A DNA stretch of 49,119 bases from IMG/VR virus record IMGVR_UViG_3300050821_006554, positions 1 through 49,119 of that record. The stretch is one strand, 5' to 3'. The DNA is from a virus. Both the position numbers and the translations under genes were made by a program. How positions within the stretch are numbered: position 1 is the stretch's first letter; each line of letters begins with the position of its first letter. This document shows positions 2,534 to 28,193 of the stretch, piece by piece. The notes beneath the pieces are model-generated. The model saw only the letters and a list, made by a program, of their open reading frames with translations. It did no database searches and was not told the origin of the DNA.

Positions 2534-3561
2534 CAGACAGACTCCCGGCTAAAAAAACTCCTTCCATGCCAACCCCTTACCGCCCCTTTCCGCCTGACGG
2601 CGGATGCTTCGCATCGCTTTTTCGGATATTCGCCTGAAAGATCAATGCCTTAAGAGCCGGACCCACTCACAGAAACCGCTGCGCGCCTCGGTAAGGCTGC
2701 GTGGGACCCATGCTCATGTTCCCGCCACCCATGGGTGAGCCCAACCACTCCCCCCGGTTGAAAAAGCCGTGGCAAATGCACGCCCTGGTAGAAAGCTGCC
2801 GGGAAAAACGCGATTGAAACGCAACCGGCAAGCGATTGCCCGGAGGGTTCCAAAAAGAAAAGCCTGCAATATCAAGCGCTTAGCGGCAGAGTTCCCATAA
2901 TGGGGCTTATCAAACAAAGCGCGGATAGGCTTAAGCCGCTGGAAAATAAGGGGAATTTCGCGCCGGACGCGGCAAGTCTTAACCGGCGCTATTTGTAGCC
3001 CATGCTGGCGCATTGGAGCTTGCGGCGCGGTCTCGGGCGATTGCGTCCGGTCTTTGGCGATTGTGCCAAGGTTTGCGCGGCGATGCCATGGGCGCGCGCT
3101 ATGGGGCGCGGTTTGGAGCGTTGGAGGGATTCCGCCCTATCCCTTCCGTAGGTTTCCCTTTCCCAAAAATTGGAGCTTCCGTGGTTTGGGAGCTTTTTTG
3201 CTTGGCAAGCTTCCCATTTCGCAATGGGGCGAGTCGTTGCGCGCGGTTATCGAGTCTCGCTTGCGTTTGCTGATGCGCAATTGGAAATGCCTGCGGTTAC
3301 AGGTCTTAAATTCCGTCCGCTGATTCCCGTTTTAAGCTTTGCCCGTTGCGCGCGGCCGGTCCTGTGTTCCGGCTCCATTGGGGCGAATAGCGCGCGATAT
3401 TTATGGGGCGGGCGGGAATTCGAGCGCTCCAATGGGTCGGAAGCCTTATATCGCTTTCTAGGCGAAATGCAAAGGATTGAGTCAATCGGAGGCTGCAAAA
3501 TGCGATTTTGTATGCTTTTCGCATTGACTCCAGTTTTAAGATTCGGCAAATTCAATTCGCT
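2534..3561. other. 1-kb region with no convincing gene between divergent operons
   Basis: Separates the start of the minus-strand structural operon from the first plus-strand early gene. Open frames here look like random translations. It holds a recurring ATTGGAGC word (3012-3019, 3169-3176, inverted at 3425-3432, near copies at 3113, 3186 and inverted at 3372), a CACCCATGGGTG palindrome at 2726-2737, and many TTAA-containing words in otherwise GC-rich DNA. Candidate location for both divergent promoters, a packaging site next to TerS, or an origin; none is proven. Confidence 0.5.
2667..2732 (-). CDS. possible 21-residue leader peptide
   Basis: ATG-to-TGA frame encoding MGGGNMSMGPTQPYRGAQRFL, preceded by a GGGGGGAG purine run about 20 bases upstream, in the leader of the TerS operon. 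The composition looks peptide-like rather than random, but it is short and the spacing of the purine run is poor. Listed as a possibility only. Confidence 0.2.
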   Translation of the reverse strand: MGGGNMSMGPTQPYRGAQRFL

Positions 3562-3610
3562 GAAACGCGGCAATGACGCTGCGCAAAAGGGAAAAAGGAA
3601 CTTCCGAAAA
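3562..3610 (+). promoter_or_regulatory. two-hairpin leader, copy A
   Basis: Most divergent of four related leaders. GAAAC then stem GCGGC (3567-3571), 6-base loop, GCTGC (3578-3582, one G-U pair), an A-rich linker, then AAGGAACTTCC in which the Shine-Dalgarno GGAA can pair with the TTCC after it, then CGAAAA and the ATG of the DUF932 gene. Confidence 0.6.
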
Positions 3611-4627
3611 ATGGCACACAACATTGATATGACGGGCGGGCGGGCGAATATCGCGTTCATGGGCTCGCGCAAGGACATCTGGCATCAATTGGGAACCGAA
3701 ATGGCTCCTGGTATGTCGATTGAAGATTGGGCCGTCGCGGCCGGTCTTAATTGGCAAGCGATTAAAAGCCCCGCGCGGCTTTCACTTCATGGTCCCGAAT
3801 TCGCGCATTTATCGGAAGCGGAACGCGCGGCAATTGTGCCGGATCGTTTCGACATTGTGCGCAGCGATAATGGGCATCCGCTAGGCTATGCATCGAACGT
3901 GTATCAGCCTTGCCAACCTCGCGACGTTCTTTCGTGGTTCCAACAATATATCGGAGTCGATGATAGGTTTTCGATTGACGTTGCGGGCTCGCTGAAAAAC
4001 GGGGAAATCATTTGGGCAACGGCCGGTTATAATGGCGATATCTCCGTGGCGGGCGATAAGCATCGCGCGCGCCTTTTGATGACGACAACGTTTGACGGCT
4101 CAGGCGCGACAATCAACCAAGCAACCATGACTCGGACGGTCTGTGAAAATACGCTCCGCGCCTCTTTGAGCGACAAGCGCGCGATTGTGAAAACCCGGCA
4201 CAATACGAAATTTGACGCGCGCGCCGTTGGCAAGGAATTGGGCGCCATCGCGCAAGGCTTTGCCGAATTTAAGGCAATGGGCGACGCTATGGGCTCCGTC
4301 CATATGTCCGAACGTGACACGGTAGCGTTTTTCAAAGCTTTGCTGGACATCCCATTCGATGCAACGTCTGCCGATATCAGCGGCAAGAAACGCAATGCGT
4401 TCGATGCTTTGGCGAACGCCTATGAAGTGACGCTAAACGAAGGGACTCCAGCTTGCACGCAGTGGACGGCGCTTAACGCGGTAACGCGCTATGTAGATCA
4501 CGACAAGAACGTGAAAGGCGACGACAAAGCGGAGTCGCGTTTTCTTTCGTCCAATTTTGGATCGGGCGCGGCCATGAAGGCTAAAGCGATTGGCCTTTTG
4601 ATGCCGCGTCTTGCGGTAGCGGCTTAA
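3611..4627 (+). CDS. DUF932 / TIGR03299 phage-plasmid protein
   Basis: 338 residues. Opens with MAHNIDMTGGRANIAFMG and carries the family's usual features: WHQLGT near residue 25, an SPA...SDN...YQP block near 55-105, and the central VCENTLRAS segment near 180. The family is widespread in phages and plasmids; its biochemical role is unknown. The start agrees with the family's usual beginning. An in-frame ATG 37 codons upstream (3500) has a stronger Shine-Dalgarno (GGAGG, 8-base gap), so a longer form is possible and would translate through leader copy A. First gene of the early plus-strand block. Confidence 0.85.
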   Translation: MAHNIDMTGGRANIAFMGSRKDIWHQLGTEMAPGMSIEDWAVAAGLNWQAIKSPARLSLHGPEFAHLSEAERAAIVPDRFDIVRSDNGHPLGYASNVYQPCQPRDVLSWFQQYIGVDDRFSIDVAGSLKNGEIIWATAGYNGDISVAGDKHRARLLMTTTFDGSGATINQATMTRTVCENTLRASLSDKRAIVKTRHNTKFDARAVGKELGAIAQGFAEFKAMGDAMGSVHMSERDTVAFFKALLDIPFDATSADISGKKRNAFDALANAYEVTLNEGTPACTQWTALNAVTRYVDHDKNVKGDDKAESRFLSSNFGSGAAMKAKAIGLLMPRLAVAA

Positions 4628-22996: not shown

Positions 22997-23950
22997 ATGG
23001 CAAACGATTTCCGCCCCGCCGTTCGTGAGAACGTCGGACTGATTATCGGTCTCGCGGGCGGCACCGGTAGCGGCAAGACCACATCGGCGCTGCGTTTGGC
23101 TACCGGCATGTCGGGCGGTAAGTCCTTCGCGGTGATCGACACGGAAAGCCGCCGCGCGCTGCATTATGCCGATGAATATAAATTCGACCATTGCGAGCTG
23201 CGTCCGCTGTTCTCGCCAAACGCTTACGCCGACAAGATCAAGACGGCCGATGACGCGGGCTATCCGGTAATCGTGGTCGATAGCGCCAGCCATGAGCATG
23301 CGGGCGAAGGCGGCTTACTGGACATGCACGAAGCCGAGCTGAAGCGCATGGCCGGGAACGATTGGCAGAAGCGCGAAAACTGCAAGATGGCCGCATGGAT
23401 CAATCCGAAGGGCGAGCACAAGAAATTCGTGAACCGGATTTTGCAGGTCCGCGCGCATTTGATCCTGTGTTTCCGCGCTGAAGAAAAGGTCGAAATGGTG
23501 CGCGGCGAAGATGGGAAAATGAGGATCATTCCCAAGCGCTCGCGTTCCGGCAAGGACGGCTGGATTCCGATTTGCGAAAAGAATCTGCCCTATGAATTGA
23601 CGGCTTCGTTTCTGTTGCTTGGCGAGCGGCCGGGATACCCGCTGCCGATCAAGCTCGAAAATCAACACCGCGCGCTGTTCCCGCTCGATAAGGCGATCAA
23701 TGAAGATTCCGGCCGCGAGATTGCCGCATGGGCGGCGGGCGGCACATCAAGGTCAACGCAACCATCGGCTGCGGATCGTCAACCGGGCACGCTGTTTCGC
23801 GAGGCCGAACTTGCCGCATCGGCCGGTTACGAAGAACTGCGCTCATGGTGGAACGGTCTTTCCGAAGGCGACAGGAACCTACTCAACAACGACAAGACGC
23901 GGCTTCAGGAAATCGCTCGCGCCGCCGACAAGAACCGAGACGCCGCATGA
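22997..23950 (+). CDS. AAA/RecA-like ATPase of the recombination module (Sak-like)
   Basis: 317 residues. Walker A AGGTGSGKTTS at about 20-30, FAVIDTESRR near 43-52, Walker B VIVVDSAS near 90, and HLILCFRAEEK near 150. This layout fits phage ATPases grouped with Sak3/Sak4 recombination functions. It lies next to the RecE-like nuclease, the usual pairing. The last 75 residues are a variable, hydrophilic tail. The exact Sak type cannot be set by eye. Confidence 0.75.
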   Translation: MANDFRPAVRENVGLIIGLAGGTGSGKTTSALRLATGMSGGKSFAVIDTESRRALHYADEYKFDHCELRPLFSPNAYADKIKTADDAGYPVIVVDSASHEHAGEGGLLDMHEAELKRMAGNDWQKRENCKMAAWINPKGEHKKFVNRILQVRAHLILCFRAEEKVEMVRGEDGKMRIIPKRSRSGKDGWIPICEKNLPYELTASFLLLGERPGYPLPIKLENQHRALFPLDKAINEDSGREIAAWAAGGTSRSTQPSAADRQPGTLFREAELAASAGYEELRSWWNGLSEGDRNLLNNDKTRLQEIARAADKNRDAA

Positions 23951-25547: not shown

Positions 25548-25856
25548 ATGCGTCTCGTAACCGAAACAAACGAAGCGCCGCGCCGCCCAAGCGCCCGCAT
25601 TAAGACGGTCGCGAAAGATTTGGACACGGATGCAAGCGCGATTCGCCGGTTGATTGCGGCCGGTGAACTTGAGACTCATACCATCGGCAAGCGCGGCGTG
25701 CGGGTTTACCTAGACTCCGTTGCCGCCTATCAGGACCGGCAGACAAGGCCAGTCAAGCGCGGAACGCCAGCCAATCGGCCAAAACCCAGCCGAGCCACGA
25801 AAGCCGCCCATGCCGCTTCCATAGACTATCTGAAGCGCAAAGGACTGTTACCTTGA
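25548..25856 (+). CDS. putative excisionase / MerR-type winged helix protein
   Basis: 102 residues. Residues 18-60 (TVAKDLDTDASAIRRLIAAGELETHTIGKRGVRVY) fit the small winged helix of excisionases and HTH_17 proteins; the tail is basic. Directly upstream of the integrase, the normal place for a recombination directionality factor. A perfect TGCAT-T-ATGCA palindrome lies in the gap between the two genes. Confidence 0.65.
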   Translation: MRLVTETNEAPRRPSARIKTVAKDLDTDASAIRRLIAAGELETHTIGKRGVRVYLDSVAAYQDRQTRPVKRGTPANRPKPSRATKAAHAASIDYLKRKGLLP

Positions 25857-25886
25857 CTCCCTAACCTTGGTTCCCATACGGTTTAA

Positions 25887-25908: not shown

Positions 25909-27084
25909 ATGACAACGTTTTTCGATAAAAAGCGCAAAAAATGGCAGTACGAATTCGAGCTGGACGGCCGACGCTACGGGCCGCGTGCCGCCGTTCACCC
26001 GGTCACGAAACAGCTCGCCACAACGAAGCGCGAAGCCGACGCGGTTGAGGAAACCGTCCGCGTTGCAGCGCGGATGGCCCCGAAGATCGCCAAGGCTGGC
26101 GAATCCATCATCGCGGATATTGTCGCCGCCCTGCATCCGACATGGGAAGGGCAAGCCCGCGCGAAAAACATCGAAGTCTATGAAAAGGAAATCCTTCAGT
26201 TCTTTGGTGCCGAGTCATCTGTCACGTCGGCGCTTACGCAAATCAGAGTCGATGATTTCGTAACCCACCTGAAAATAAGAACAATCAAACGATGGCATGG
26301 CGGGCCAAAGCTCAAGCCGCATGATCCGGTGAACGCCCGCAAATGGAAGGATAGCGGCAAGAAACTGAGGCCAGCGACAATCAATCTGTATCTTGGAGTC
26401 TTGGCTCAAATTGTTGAGCGCGCGGCATTGCTTCGCGATGAAGCAACAAAGGAACGTGTCCTGAAAGAGCCGCCGACCGTCCCGCATCAGAAAAAGGACA
26501 AGCGCAAACCGCGCCCGGTGCCCACCGTCATTTGCGGCTGGCTCTTGGAGAACCTCGCGAAACATGCCGGGGAAGCGTTCGGCGCGAGTCTCCGTTTCGG
26601 ATTTCGGCGCGGCGAAATTTTCTCGCTGACAATTTCCGATGTCGATTTCGAGAAAGGCGGCGTCAATTTGCGGGCCGAAAGGGTCAAAGACAAAGAGGAC
26701 GAATTTCTACCCGGCACGGCCGACGACATGGCTTTTATGCAGGCGTTGGTAGACCAAGCGAAAGAGCGCGGGACCAAATTCCTGATTACCTACCGGCGCG
26801 GCAAAAATCACTCTTGGGAGCCGATCAAAAAACCCAAAAGCGCTTGGAAGCGCGTCATGGCGAAGGTCAAGGAAGCCTATGGGGAGACGTGGCGCTGGCA
26901 CGATGTTCGCGCCGCCTACATTTCGCATATCGCTAAGACAAACCCGCTTGGGGCGCAAAAGCTCGCCCGCCATTCCGACTACGCGACGACGGCGCTTTAC
27001 GTTGGGATTGACGATGATTTCAAACGGCAAGTCATCGAAAAGGCCGGACAACACCCGGCGCTCAAAATTGTCAAAGCCGCTTAA
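25909..27084 (+). CDS. int: tyrosine-family integrase
   Basis: 391 residues. N-terminal arm-binding region (FFDKKRKKWQYEFELDGRRYG, a beta-sheet like other arm-binding domains), core-binding domain (about 70-200) and catalytic domain. Catalytic residues seen: Arg in LRFGFRRGEIF, HDVR at 331-334, LARH with His355, and nucleophile Tyr364 in ALYVG. It joins phage and host DNA at the tRNA-Pro attachment site 400 bases downstream. The ATG behind GGGGCAAG is preferred to an upstream in-frame codon. Confidence 0.93.
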   Translation: MTTFFDKKRKKWQYEFELDGRRYGPRAAVHPVTKQLATTKREADAVEETVRVAARMAPKIAKAGESIIADIVAALHPTWEGQARAKNIEVYEKEILQFFGAESSVTSALTQIRVDDFVTHLKIRTIKRWHGGPKLKPHDPVNARKWKDSGKKLRPATINLYLGVLAQIVERAALLRDEATKERVLKEPPTVPHQKKDKRKPRPVPTVICGWLLENLAKHAGEAFGASLRFGFRRGEIFSLTISDVDFEKGGVNLRAERVKDKEDEFLPGTADDMAFMQALVDQAKERGTKFLITYRRGKNHSWEPIKKPKSAWKRVMAKVKEAYGETWRWHDVRAAYISHIAKTNPLGAQKLARHSDYATTALYVGIDDDFKRQVIEKAGQHPALKIVKAA

Positions 27085-27096
27085 GGGGAACTTTCA

Positions 27097-27456
27097 ATGA
27101 GCAAGACCAAGCAAAAGCCAGCGCCTACGGTGCCCGATGTACTGAAACACCACCATCCCATGCATAGGGTTTACCCGCTCACTCAATTTGATGAAAACGG
27201 CTTCACCGCTGATCTGGAAAACGGCAAGGAATTTTTCACCTTCGAACGCGCCCGCGCCTATGCTGTCACTCTGCCTGCGGCCATCATCGAAACCGTTGCC
27301 ACAACCGGAGTGATCGCCGGTCAAGTAATCCCAAATGAATGGTCTCCAGATGAAGAAATTGTTGGGTCTGATGACGCTGGGGATTTCAACATGGACGAAG
27401 AAACGGCTTCCGAGTCCCAGCAAGGAGTCCCAGCAAGCGAAAGTTTGGAAACATAA
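27097..27456 (+). CDS. hypothetical protein between integrase and attP
   Basis: 119 residues. YPLTQFDENGFTADLENGKEF and PAAIIETVATTGVIAGQVIP suggest a small beta-rich protein with an acidic, Ser/Gln-rich tail. The tail's DNA contains the left pair of attP-flanking repeats, which may explain its odd composition. No family recognised. Confidence 0.65.
   Translation: MSKTKQKPAPTVPDVLKHHHPMHRVYPLTQFDENGFTADLENGKEFFTFERARAYAVTLPAAIIETVATTGVIAGQVIPNEWSPDEEIVGSDDAGDFNMDEETASESQQGVPASESLET
27412..27437 (+). repeat. left pair of attP-flanking direct repeats
   Basis: Two adjacent copies of GAGTCCCAGCAAG (27412-27424 and 27425-27437), 44 bases left of the attP core. With a 13-base period the two copies are read in different codon frames, so protein coding does not explain their identity. 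Candidate arm-type integrase sites. Confidence 0.65.
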
Positions 27457-27481
27457 AAAACACCTAACCCATTGATTTAAT

Positions 27482-27526
27482 TGGTCGGAGAGAGAGGATT
27501 TGAACCTCCGGCCCCCACGTCCCGAA
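27482..27526 (-). other. attP: attP core: 3' part of tRNA-Pro(CGG)
   Basis: Read on the minus strand these 45 bases run from the anticodon loop (TTCGGGA, anticodon CGG) through anticodon stem 3' side, variable loop, a paired T-arm (GGAGG/TTCAAAT/CCTCT), acceptor strand CTCTCCG, A and CCA. The 5' half of a tRNA is missing, so this is not a tRNA gene but the sequence by which the phage restores the host gene on integration. Confidence 0.88.
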
Positions 27527-27590
27527 TTTGAAGGCTACCAGCTAAGTACATGAAATCATTGAGTCCGAAAAGAACGAATTGGGGCAGAAT

Positions 27591-28193
27591 ATGAACGAAA
27601 TAGCACCCGAGTCCCAGCAAGAGTCCCAGCAAGAATCCAGCACGGCGACAATCAAAGACGTGCTGGACTCGGTCTATGAGGCGCACGAAGGCAGCGAAGC
27701 GTCACACGCCTATTCGCGCCGCCATGGCGTCGTGTCGGCGGCGGTTCTCACGGTCTACGATGACGCCACCGCCGCGACCGTAGCGCTATCGCTCGCGCCC
27801 CGGATCACGGGGAAGGTTGTCGTGGAGGTCGGCGGCGGCATCGGCCTCCTGGCCTTCCATTTGGGCTTGTACGCCGAGCGGGTGTTCTGCATCGAAGCCA
27901 ATCCGGTTTGGACATCTTGCTTCCTCGCGGCGCTGATTTCCGAGAAGCCGAAAAATGTCTCGTACCTGTTCGGCGCGGCCGACGAATTCGCTGGGCTGAT
28001 CCGCGCCGATGTGGCCCTGTTCTGCACGCATTCAGGCGTGTCCGCGATGCGAGCGGCGGCGGCGTTGTTCGCGCCGGTCGTGATCGACGTTTGGGGGGAG
28101 GTCTTGAAGGACGCGGATTGGAAGGATTTCGATGCCCTCGCACTCGCGCTGCGGGAGTCATCCTTGAAAGGAAAAGGCCGTCCCGTACGGTGA
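27591..28193 (+). CDS. SAM-dependent methyltransferase-like protein
   Basis: 200 residues. GKVVVEVGGGIGLLAFHLG (about residues 75-93) is motif I of class I methyltransferases, VFCIEANP the acidic end of strand 2, and ADVALFCTHSGV strand 4; no DPPY-type motif, so DNA base methylation is not indicated. The first 20 residues repeat ESQQ because the right attP-flanking repeats lie there. ATG behind GGGGCAG; a TTG start four codons earlier is possible. Last gene before attP-side terminator and between integration site and structural genes: a lysogeny-conversion type cargo position. Confidence 0.7.
   Translation: MNEIAPESQQESQQESSTATIKDVLDSVYEAHEGSEASHAYSRRHGVVSAAVLTVYDDATAATVALSLAPRITGKVVVEVGGGIGLLAFHLGLYAERVFCIEANPVWTSCFLAALISEKPKNVSYLFGAADEFAGLIRADVALFCTHSGVSAMRAAAALFAPVVIDVWGEVLKDADWKDFDALALALRESSLKGKGRPVR
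27609..27633 (+). repeat. right pair of attP-flanking direct repeats
   Basis: GAGTCCCAGCAA (27609-27620) and GAGTCCCAGCAAG (27621-27633), same orientation as the left pair, 82 bases right of the core; a decayed copy GAATCCAGCAC follows. Here the period is 12, so both copies read ESQQ. Confidence 0.65.

Follow-up and report, generated by a model that had tools for sequence, protein, structure and literature searches.

The stretch of DNA analysed here (the window, the 49,119 nucleotides of IMG/VR virus record IMGVR_UViG_3300050821_006554) carries a tyrosine integrase gene followed by a tRNA-derived phage attachment core that is flanked on each side by a pair of direct repeats, and the features of this region are collected in Table 1. 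The listed open reading frame of the integrase begins at a TTG (position 25867), upstream of the ATG used in the table. Its catalytic residues (R233, K260, H331/R334, H355 and Y364) are invariant across 13 sequences in an alignment of the integrase family described below. In the AlphaFold2 model (mean pLDDT 82) the N terminus forms a three-stranded sheet (strands at residues 3-6, 11-18 and 21-27) and a helix (residues 40-56), after which come helical core-binding and catalytic domains; its best Foldseek matches are Xer, Tn1549 Int and lambda Int, and over the whole chain it matches lambda Int 1z1b with an E value of 1.8e-7. On this model the integrase is predicted to have the lambda-type (heterobivalent) fold, in which a small N-terminal domain would bind arm sites. 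In nearly all members of the family a homologue of the small HTH gene, found after one profile iteration, directly precedes int. Elsewhere the window encodes a DUF932 protein (3170-4627, + strand; Pfam E 1e-39) and an AAA_24 ATPase (22997-23950, + strand) that is possibly a phage recombination protein.

The 12-base sequence GAGTCCCAGCAA is present in four exact copies, all on the + strand, at 27412-27423, 27425-27436, 27609-27620 and 27621-27632 (start-to-start spacings of 13, 184 and 12 bases). The left pair is separated from the core by 44 bases and the right pair by 82 bases, and these gaps are exact because the core is 27482-27526; the positions, shared orientation, periods (13 and 12) and gaps given in the initial annotation of this DNA are thus correct to the base. 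In the 49 kb window the only other 12-mers found at least three times on the same strand inside 300 bases belong to a CCG run. Contig L002, a separate IMG/VR record, is 99.98% identical to the window over the attP region and therefore supplies no independent evidence.

The attP core shares its 45 bases with the tRNA-Pro(CGG) of alphaproteobacterial genomes, the presumed host attB, and its anticodon middle base is 27523. It is present in 26 public-genome stretches, Rhizomicrobium electricum among them, nearly all within an intact alphaproteobacterial tRNA-Pro(CGG) gene, and some of these stretches differ from the window at one T-loop position. The host anticodon stem (CCACG/CGTGG) is an inverted pair that flanks the 7-base loop and could correspond to the inverted core-type sites that a lambda-type attP has around its 6-8 base overlap; attP keeps one half of it only.

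Table 1. Features of the integrase and attP region of the window (distances are from the anticodon middle base)
Feature	Coordinates	Strand	Remarks
Small HTH gene, candidate excisionase (recombination directionality factor)	25548-25856	+	weak HTH_17/MerR match
Tyrosine integrase, 391 aa from ATG	25909-27084	+	Pfam Phage_integrase 1.3e-9; PHROG integrase
Short ORF, 119 aa	27097-27456	+	from ORF list; last codons hold left pair
Left arm site copy 1 (GAGTCCCAGCAAG), putative	27412-27424	+	AGTCCC 6-mer starts at -110
Left arm site copy 2, putative	27425-27437	+	-97
Predicted IHF site	27465-27477	-	perfect match to WATCAANNNNTTR (TAACCCATTGATT on +), centred at -52
attP core	27482-27526	-	45 bases identical to tRNA-Pro(CGG) 3' half, anticodon loop to CCA
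Degenerate IHF-like site	27543-27555	-	2 mismatches, centred at +26; better versions in L079, L064, L066, L067 and L059
Gene with methyltransferase-like glycine motif (by eye), candidate	27591-28193	+	first ~20 codons hold right pair
Right arm site copy 1, putative	27609-27620	+	6-mer starts at +87
Right arm site copy 2, putative	27621-27633	+	+99

Single-protein searches with the integrase found one near-identical contig (another record) and no matches among bacterial genome contigs, and the phage and plasmid collections gave distant catalytic-domain matches only. The productive route to relatives was the use of the tRNA core as a DNA probe, which identified contig JAFKEW010000058.1 (L028, L012), where a 54.8-kb prophage (G002) whose integrase is 45% identical to that of the window lies in tRNA-Pro(CGG). 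The G002 integrase gene (L028:5121-6572, + strand) encodes a C-terminal extension of ~80 residues that runs through the arm pair to the tRNA edge. Profile searches added L059, L060-L064 and L079 from IMG/VR and G435, G366, G488, G527, G515, G490 and G550 from bacterial genomes, and class-wide genome samples contained few additional family members. There are more than 12 elements with related integrases, whose identity to that of the window is 26-46%; among themselves these integrases mostly share 31-57% identity, L067 and L079 being a close pair (86%). Their integration targets are tRNA-Pro, -Arg, -Thr and -Gly, in the 3' or the 5' half.

These attachment regions were compared in a canonical orientation, in which AGTCCC is read from the tRNA end towards the anticodon and distances are from the anticodon middle base. 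In the readable regions, the corresponding side of the tRNA core carries a tandem pair. The first copy of the tRNA-end pair, whose period is 13, lies at -109 to -111 in six of eight elements: -110 in the window, L069 and L064, -111 in G002 and L059, and -109 in L079. The outliers, G435/L047 at -134 and G554/L105 at -87, are shifted by about 23-24 bases. The first copy of the anticodon-side pair, whose period is 12 (but 13 in L059), lies at +86 to +88 in 10 of 11 elements: +87 in the window, +87 and +88 (including G002 and L059), +86 in two more, +87 in L049, L066 and L065, and +86 in L067 and L068. A truncated integrase remnant in R. electricum retains a pair at +91, the stretches read of L050 and L062 showed no pair, and the L061 contig stops at int. 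Both arms are present in five elements: the window, L059, L064 and L079, where they are in a single unintegrated sequence, and the G002 prophage, which has one at each end. When int is on the anticodon side (L049, L065-L068 and L079) the int-adjacent pair is the period-12 pair, reversed, and the layout is a mirror image. The R. electricum stretch L051:11100-11800 has an integrase remnant by a tRNA-Pro-like fragment and many scattered CACTACCA units past the expected pair.

The letters of the arm copies match within an element and vary between elements (AGTCCCAGCA; TTCCCTCACG; TCCCCCACG; AGTCCCACAT; AGTCCCGATG), as would be expected if they co-evolved with a DNA-binding protein. The earlier suggestion that the window repeats are arm-type sites gains strong support from this comparison of related attP regions, in which tandem pairs of different sequence stand at near-invariant distances from the anticodon. 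Motif similarity correlates with that of the Int N-terminal domain (r 0.47) and with that of the rest of Int (r 0.49) in a Mantel comparison, and specificity is therefore not pinned to the N-terminal domain.

How often would such pairs be met by chance? Among 40,000 random anchors in family sequences, 0.13% (left) and 0.35% (right) have a pair at 9/10 identity at the expected offset, and at the same identity 5 of 8 left and 8 of 11 right family sites do; the binomial p values of about 2e-13 and 3e-18 are uncorrected for shared descent and are indicative, since the elements are not fully independent. At control tRNA-Pro(CGG) sites without this integrase (26, among them L034 and L035, which are on other viral contigs) no pair was found in 24 even at 8/10 identity; L010 (left) and L031 (right) each show a pair of 8/10 identity where the family rule would place one. 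That of L010 (ACCACACGCC/AGCCCCACACG) lies about 111 bases away from the anticodon of tRNA-Pro(CGG), with no integrase nearby, and is perhaps a scar left by an element since lost. When IMG/VR was scanned for four AGTCCC units, 16 stretches were obtained, namely the sister contig, the distant relative L092 and 14 that are unrelated, so the four-AGTCCC pattern alone is not diagnostic and the distance from the tRNA core is needed as well. The unrelated stretches (L080-L091, L093 and L094) are nearly all long coding-type 12-base arrays (CCGAGTCCCNGA and similar). In L092 (617-842) AGTCCC pairs flank a tRNA-Pro-derived core next to a distant truncated integrase (profile E 3.8e-8), and their orientation and distances deviate from the family rule.

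Sites for IHF are predicted between the arms and the core, as a lambda-type attP requires. Matches to WATCAANNNNTTR with no more than one mismatch lie at -51/-52 in G002, L069, L064 and the window (where the match is perfect), and at +25 to +27 in L059, L064 (perfect), L079 (perfect), L066, L067 and L051; these share one orientation, and the background of such matches is 0.2-0.65 per kb. L047 has a match at -51 in the opposite orientation.

We infer from these features, with high confidence, that the tyrosine integrase encoded next to the four repeats uses them as its arm-type sites. In each of four Int subunits the N-terminal domain would sit on an arm site, and the core-binding and catalytic domains on a half-site at the anticodon loop, in the core derived from tRNA-Pro(CGG). 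IHF would bend the DNA between arms and core at the predicted sites (a perfect one at -52 and a weak one at +26) and so allow distant sites to meet, as in lambda, and the product of the HTH gene upstream of int is likely the excisionase.

The arms are overlapped by the two flanking ORFs, which puts the repeats within coding DNA (the left pair in 27097-27456, for which searches detected no relatives, and the right pair in 27591-28193, as had been noted before), and this raises the question of whether they are anything more than coding sequence. On that explanation an ESQQ peptide repeat was copied between two gene ends and has no role as DNA; the inclusion of both pairs in ORFs and the single frame of the right copies (MNEIAPESQQESQQESS..., read as ESQQESQQ) would agree with it, but the two left copies are read in different frames (...ESQQGVPASES...). 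The argument of the initial annotation from reading frames is accordingly good for the left pair only. Its conclusion, that selection acts on DNA and not on protein, gains support from an independent test: gene 27591-28193 has homologues in four other phage contigs (57-60% identical) that start past the ESQQESQQ position and so do not have the segment, and the stretches fetched around them contain no integrase relative, tRNA or repeat pair. Among the relatives, which can encode other peptides, the int-side pair is inside the 3' end of int in G002, L047, L064, L065 and L069 and at or after the int stop in L049, L066, L067 and L079, so the pair is kept whether it is translated or not. Since the right-gene homologues have no repeat-encoded N-terminus and several relatives have their pairs outside the int gene, the coding is incidental, and with the anticodon distance also fixed across elements we find a purely coding origin scarcely credible.

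Could the tandem pairs be bound by the HTH protein, as an excisionase, and not by the integrase? Excisionases commonly bind direct repeats near attP, and the constant place of the HTH gene beside int speaks for this explanation. Against it, both arms carry the same pair, which gives four sites for four Int subunits, and in lambda the Xis sites are in one arm while the Int sites bound by the N-terminal domain are in both (PMC4880445); we think it improbable. It is also very unlikely that the repeats are methylation-sensitive CcrM switches that gate integration by cell-cycle stage. The GAGTC that had been pointed out earlier is indeed in all four window copies, but it arises from a G that precedes AGTCC, and GANTC is absent from G002, L059, L047 and L064, which have the same architecture; a role for CcrM methylation was rejected because GANTC, found in 14 of 36 family copies, is not conserved.

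With the repeats taken as integrase arm sites, a wider proposal can be made tentatively, and we regard it as possible but rather doubtful: that these elements form a hitherto undescribed family of integrases whose attachment module is both rigid and reversible, and in which the arm-IHF-anticodon-IHF-arm distances are held within a base or two, arm sequence, tRNA target and int side vary, and arm sites are tolerated in, or recruited as, coding sequence, with a stand-alone arm-binding domain in L059 that could compete with the integrase. This domain, a 60-residue copy (profile E 1.8e-14), is encoded at L059:2304-2555 (+ strand) directly after int and was not found in the other members checked; it may be a competitor or a regulator of the integrase.

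The window offers an attP ready for experiment, with predicted Int, IHF and excisionase components, from a phage that probably infects relatives of Rhizomicrobium, alphaproteobacteria that have been little studied. The tandem 12-13-base pairs 110 and 87 bases from the tRNA anticodon supply a simple rule by which attP can be found, and the arm specificity of the integrase read, from sequence alone. The family, in which the scaffold stays fixed and the arm sequence changes, provides a natural series in which to study site choice by the N-terminal domain.

This element is of a kind already known, with a lambda-type anatomy and paired arm sites; what we would not have expected beforehand is a geometry that stays rigid, yet can be reversed, across targets, and the location of arm sites in gene ends. 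Rhizobium phage 16-3 integrates at a tRNA-Pro(CGG) gene, the target that it has in common with the window; a tblastn search of the phage collection with the window integrase gave one weak match, to another phage, and did not find 16-3. In the lambda intasome the Int N-terminal domain is on arm sites and the rest of Int on the core, and IHF folds the intervening DNA (PMC4880445). The window shares with the lambda attP/Int/IHF/Xis system the heterobivalent Int fold (predicted here), arm sites to either side of the core, IHF sites (predicted here) between core and arms, and a small putative DNA-binding cofactor gene beside int; however, the arms of lambda are unequal and carry five sites, and its core is not derived from a tRNA, whereas the window has two plus two sites in direct orientation at fixed distances from a tRNA anticodon-loop core. 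Paired putative arm-type sites also flank the tRNA or tmRNA core of mycobacteriophages L5 and Giles and those of cluster K (CrimD, Pixie), and in cluster K their sequence differs between related integrases (PMC3203893). The two pairs of CrimD are mutually inverted and Pixie has six sites, and the hosts and sequences of these phages differ from the window's. KplE1 (IntS/TorI, at argW) has a tRNA-targeting integrase and arm sites that overlap functional sequence, as the window does, but there it is the int promoter that is overlapped (PMC2951348) and in the window it is coding ends.
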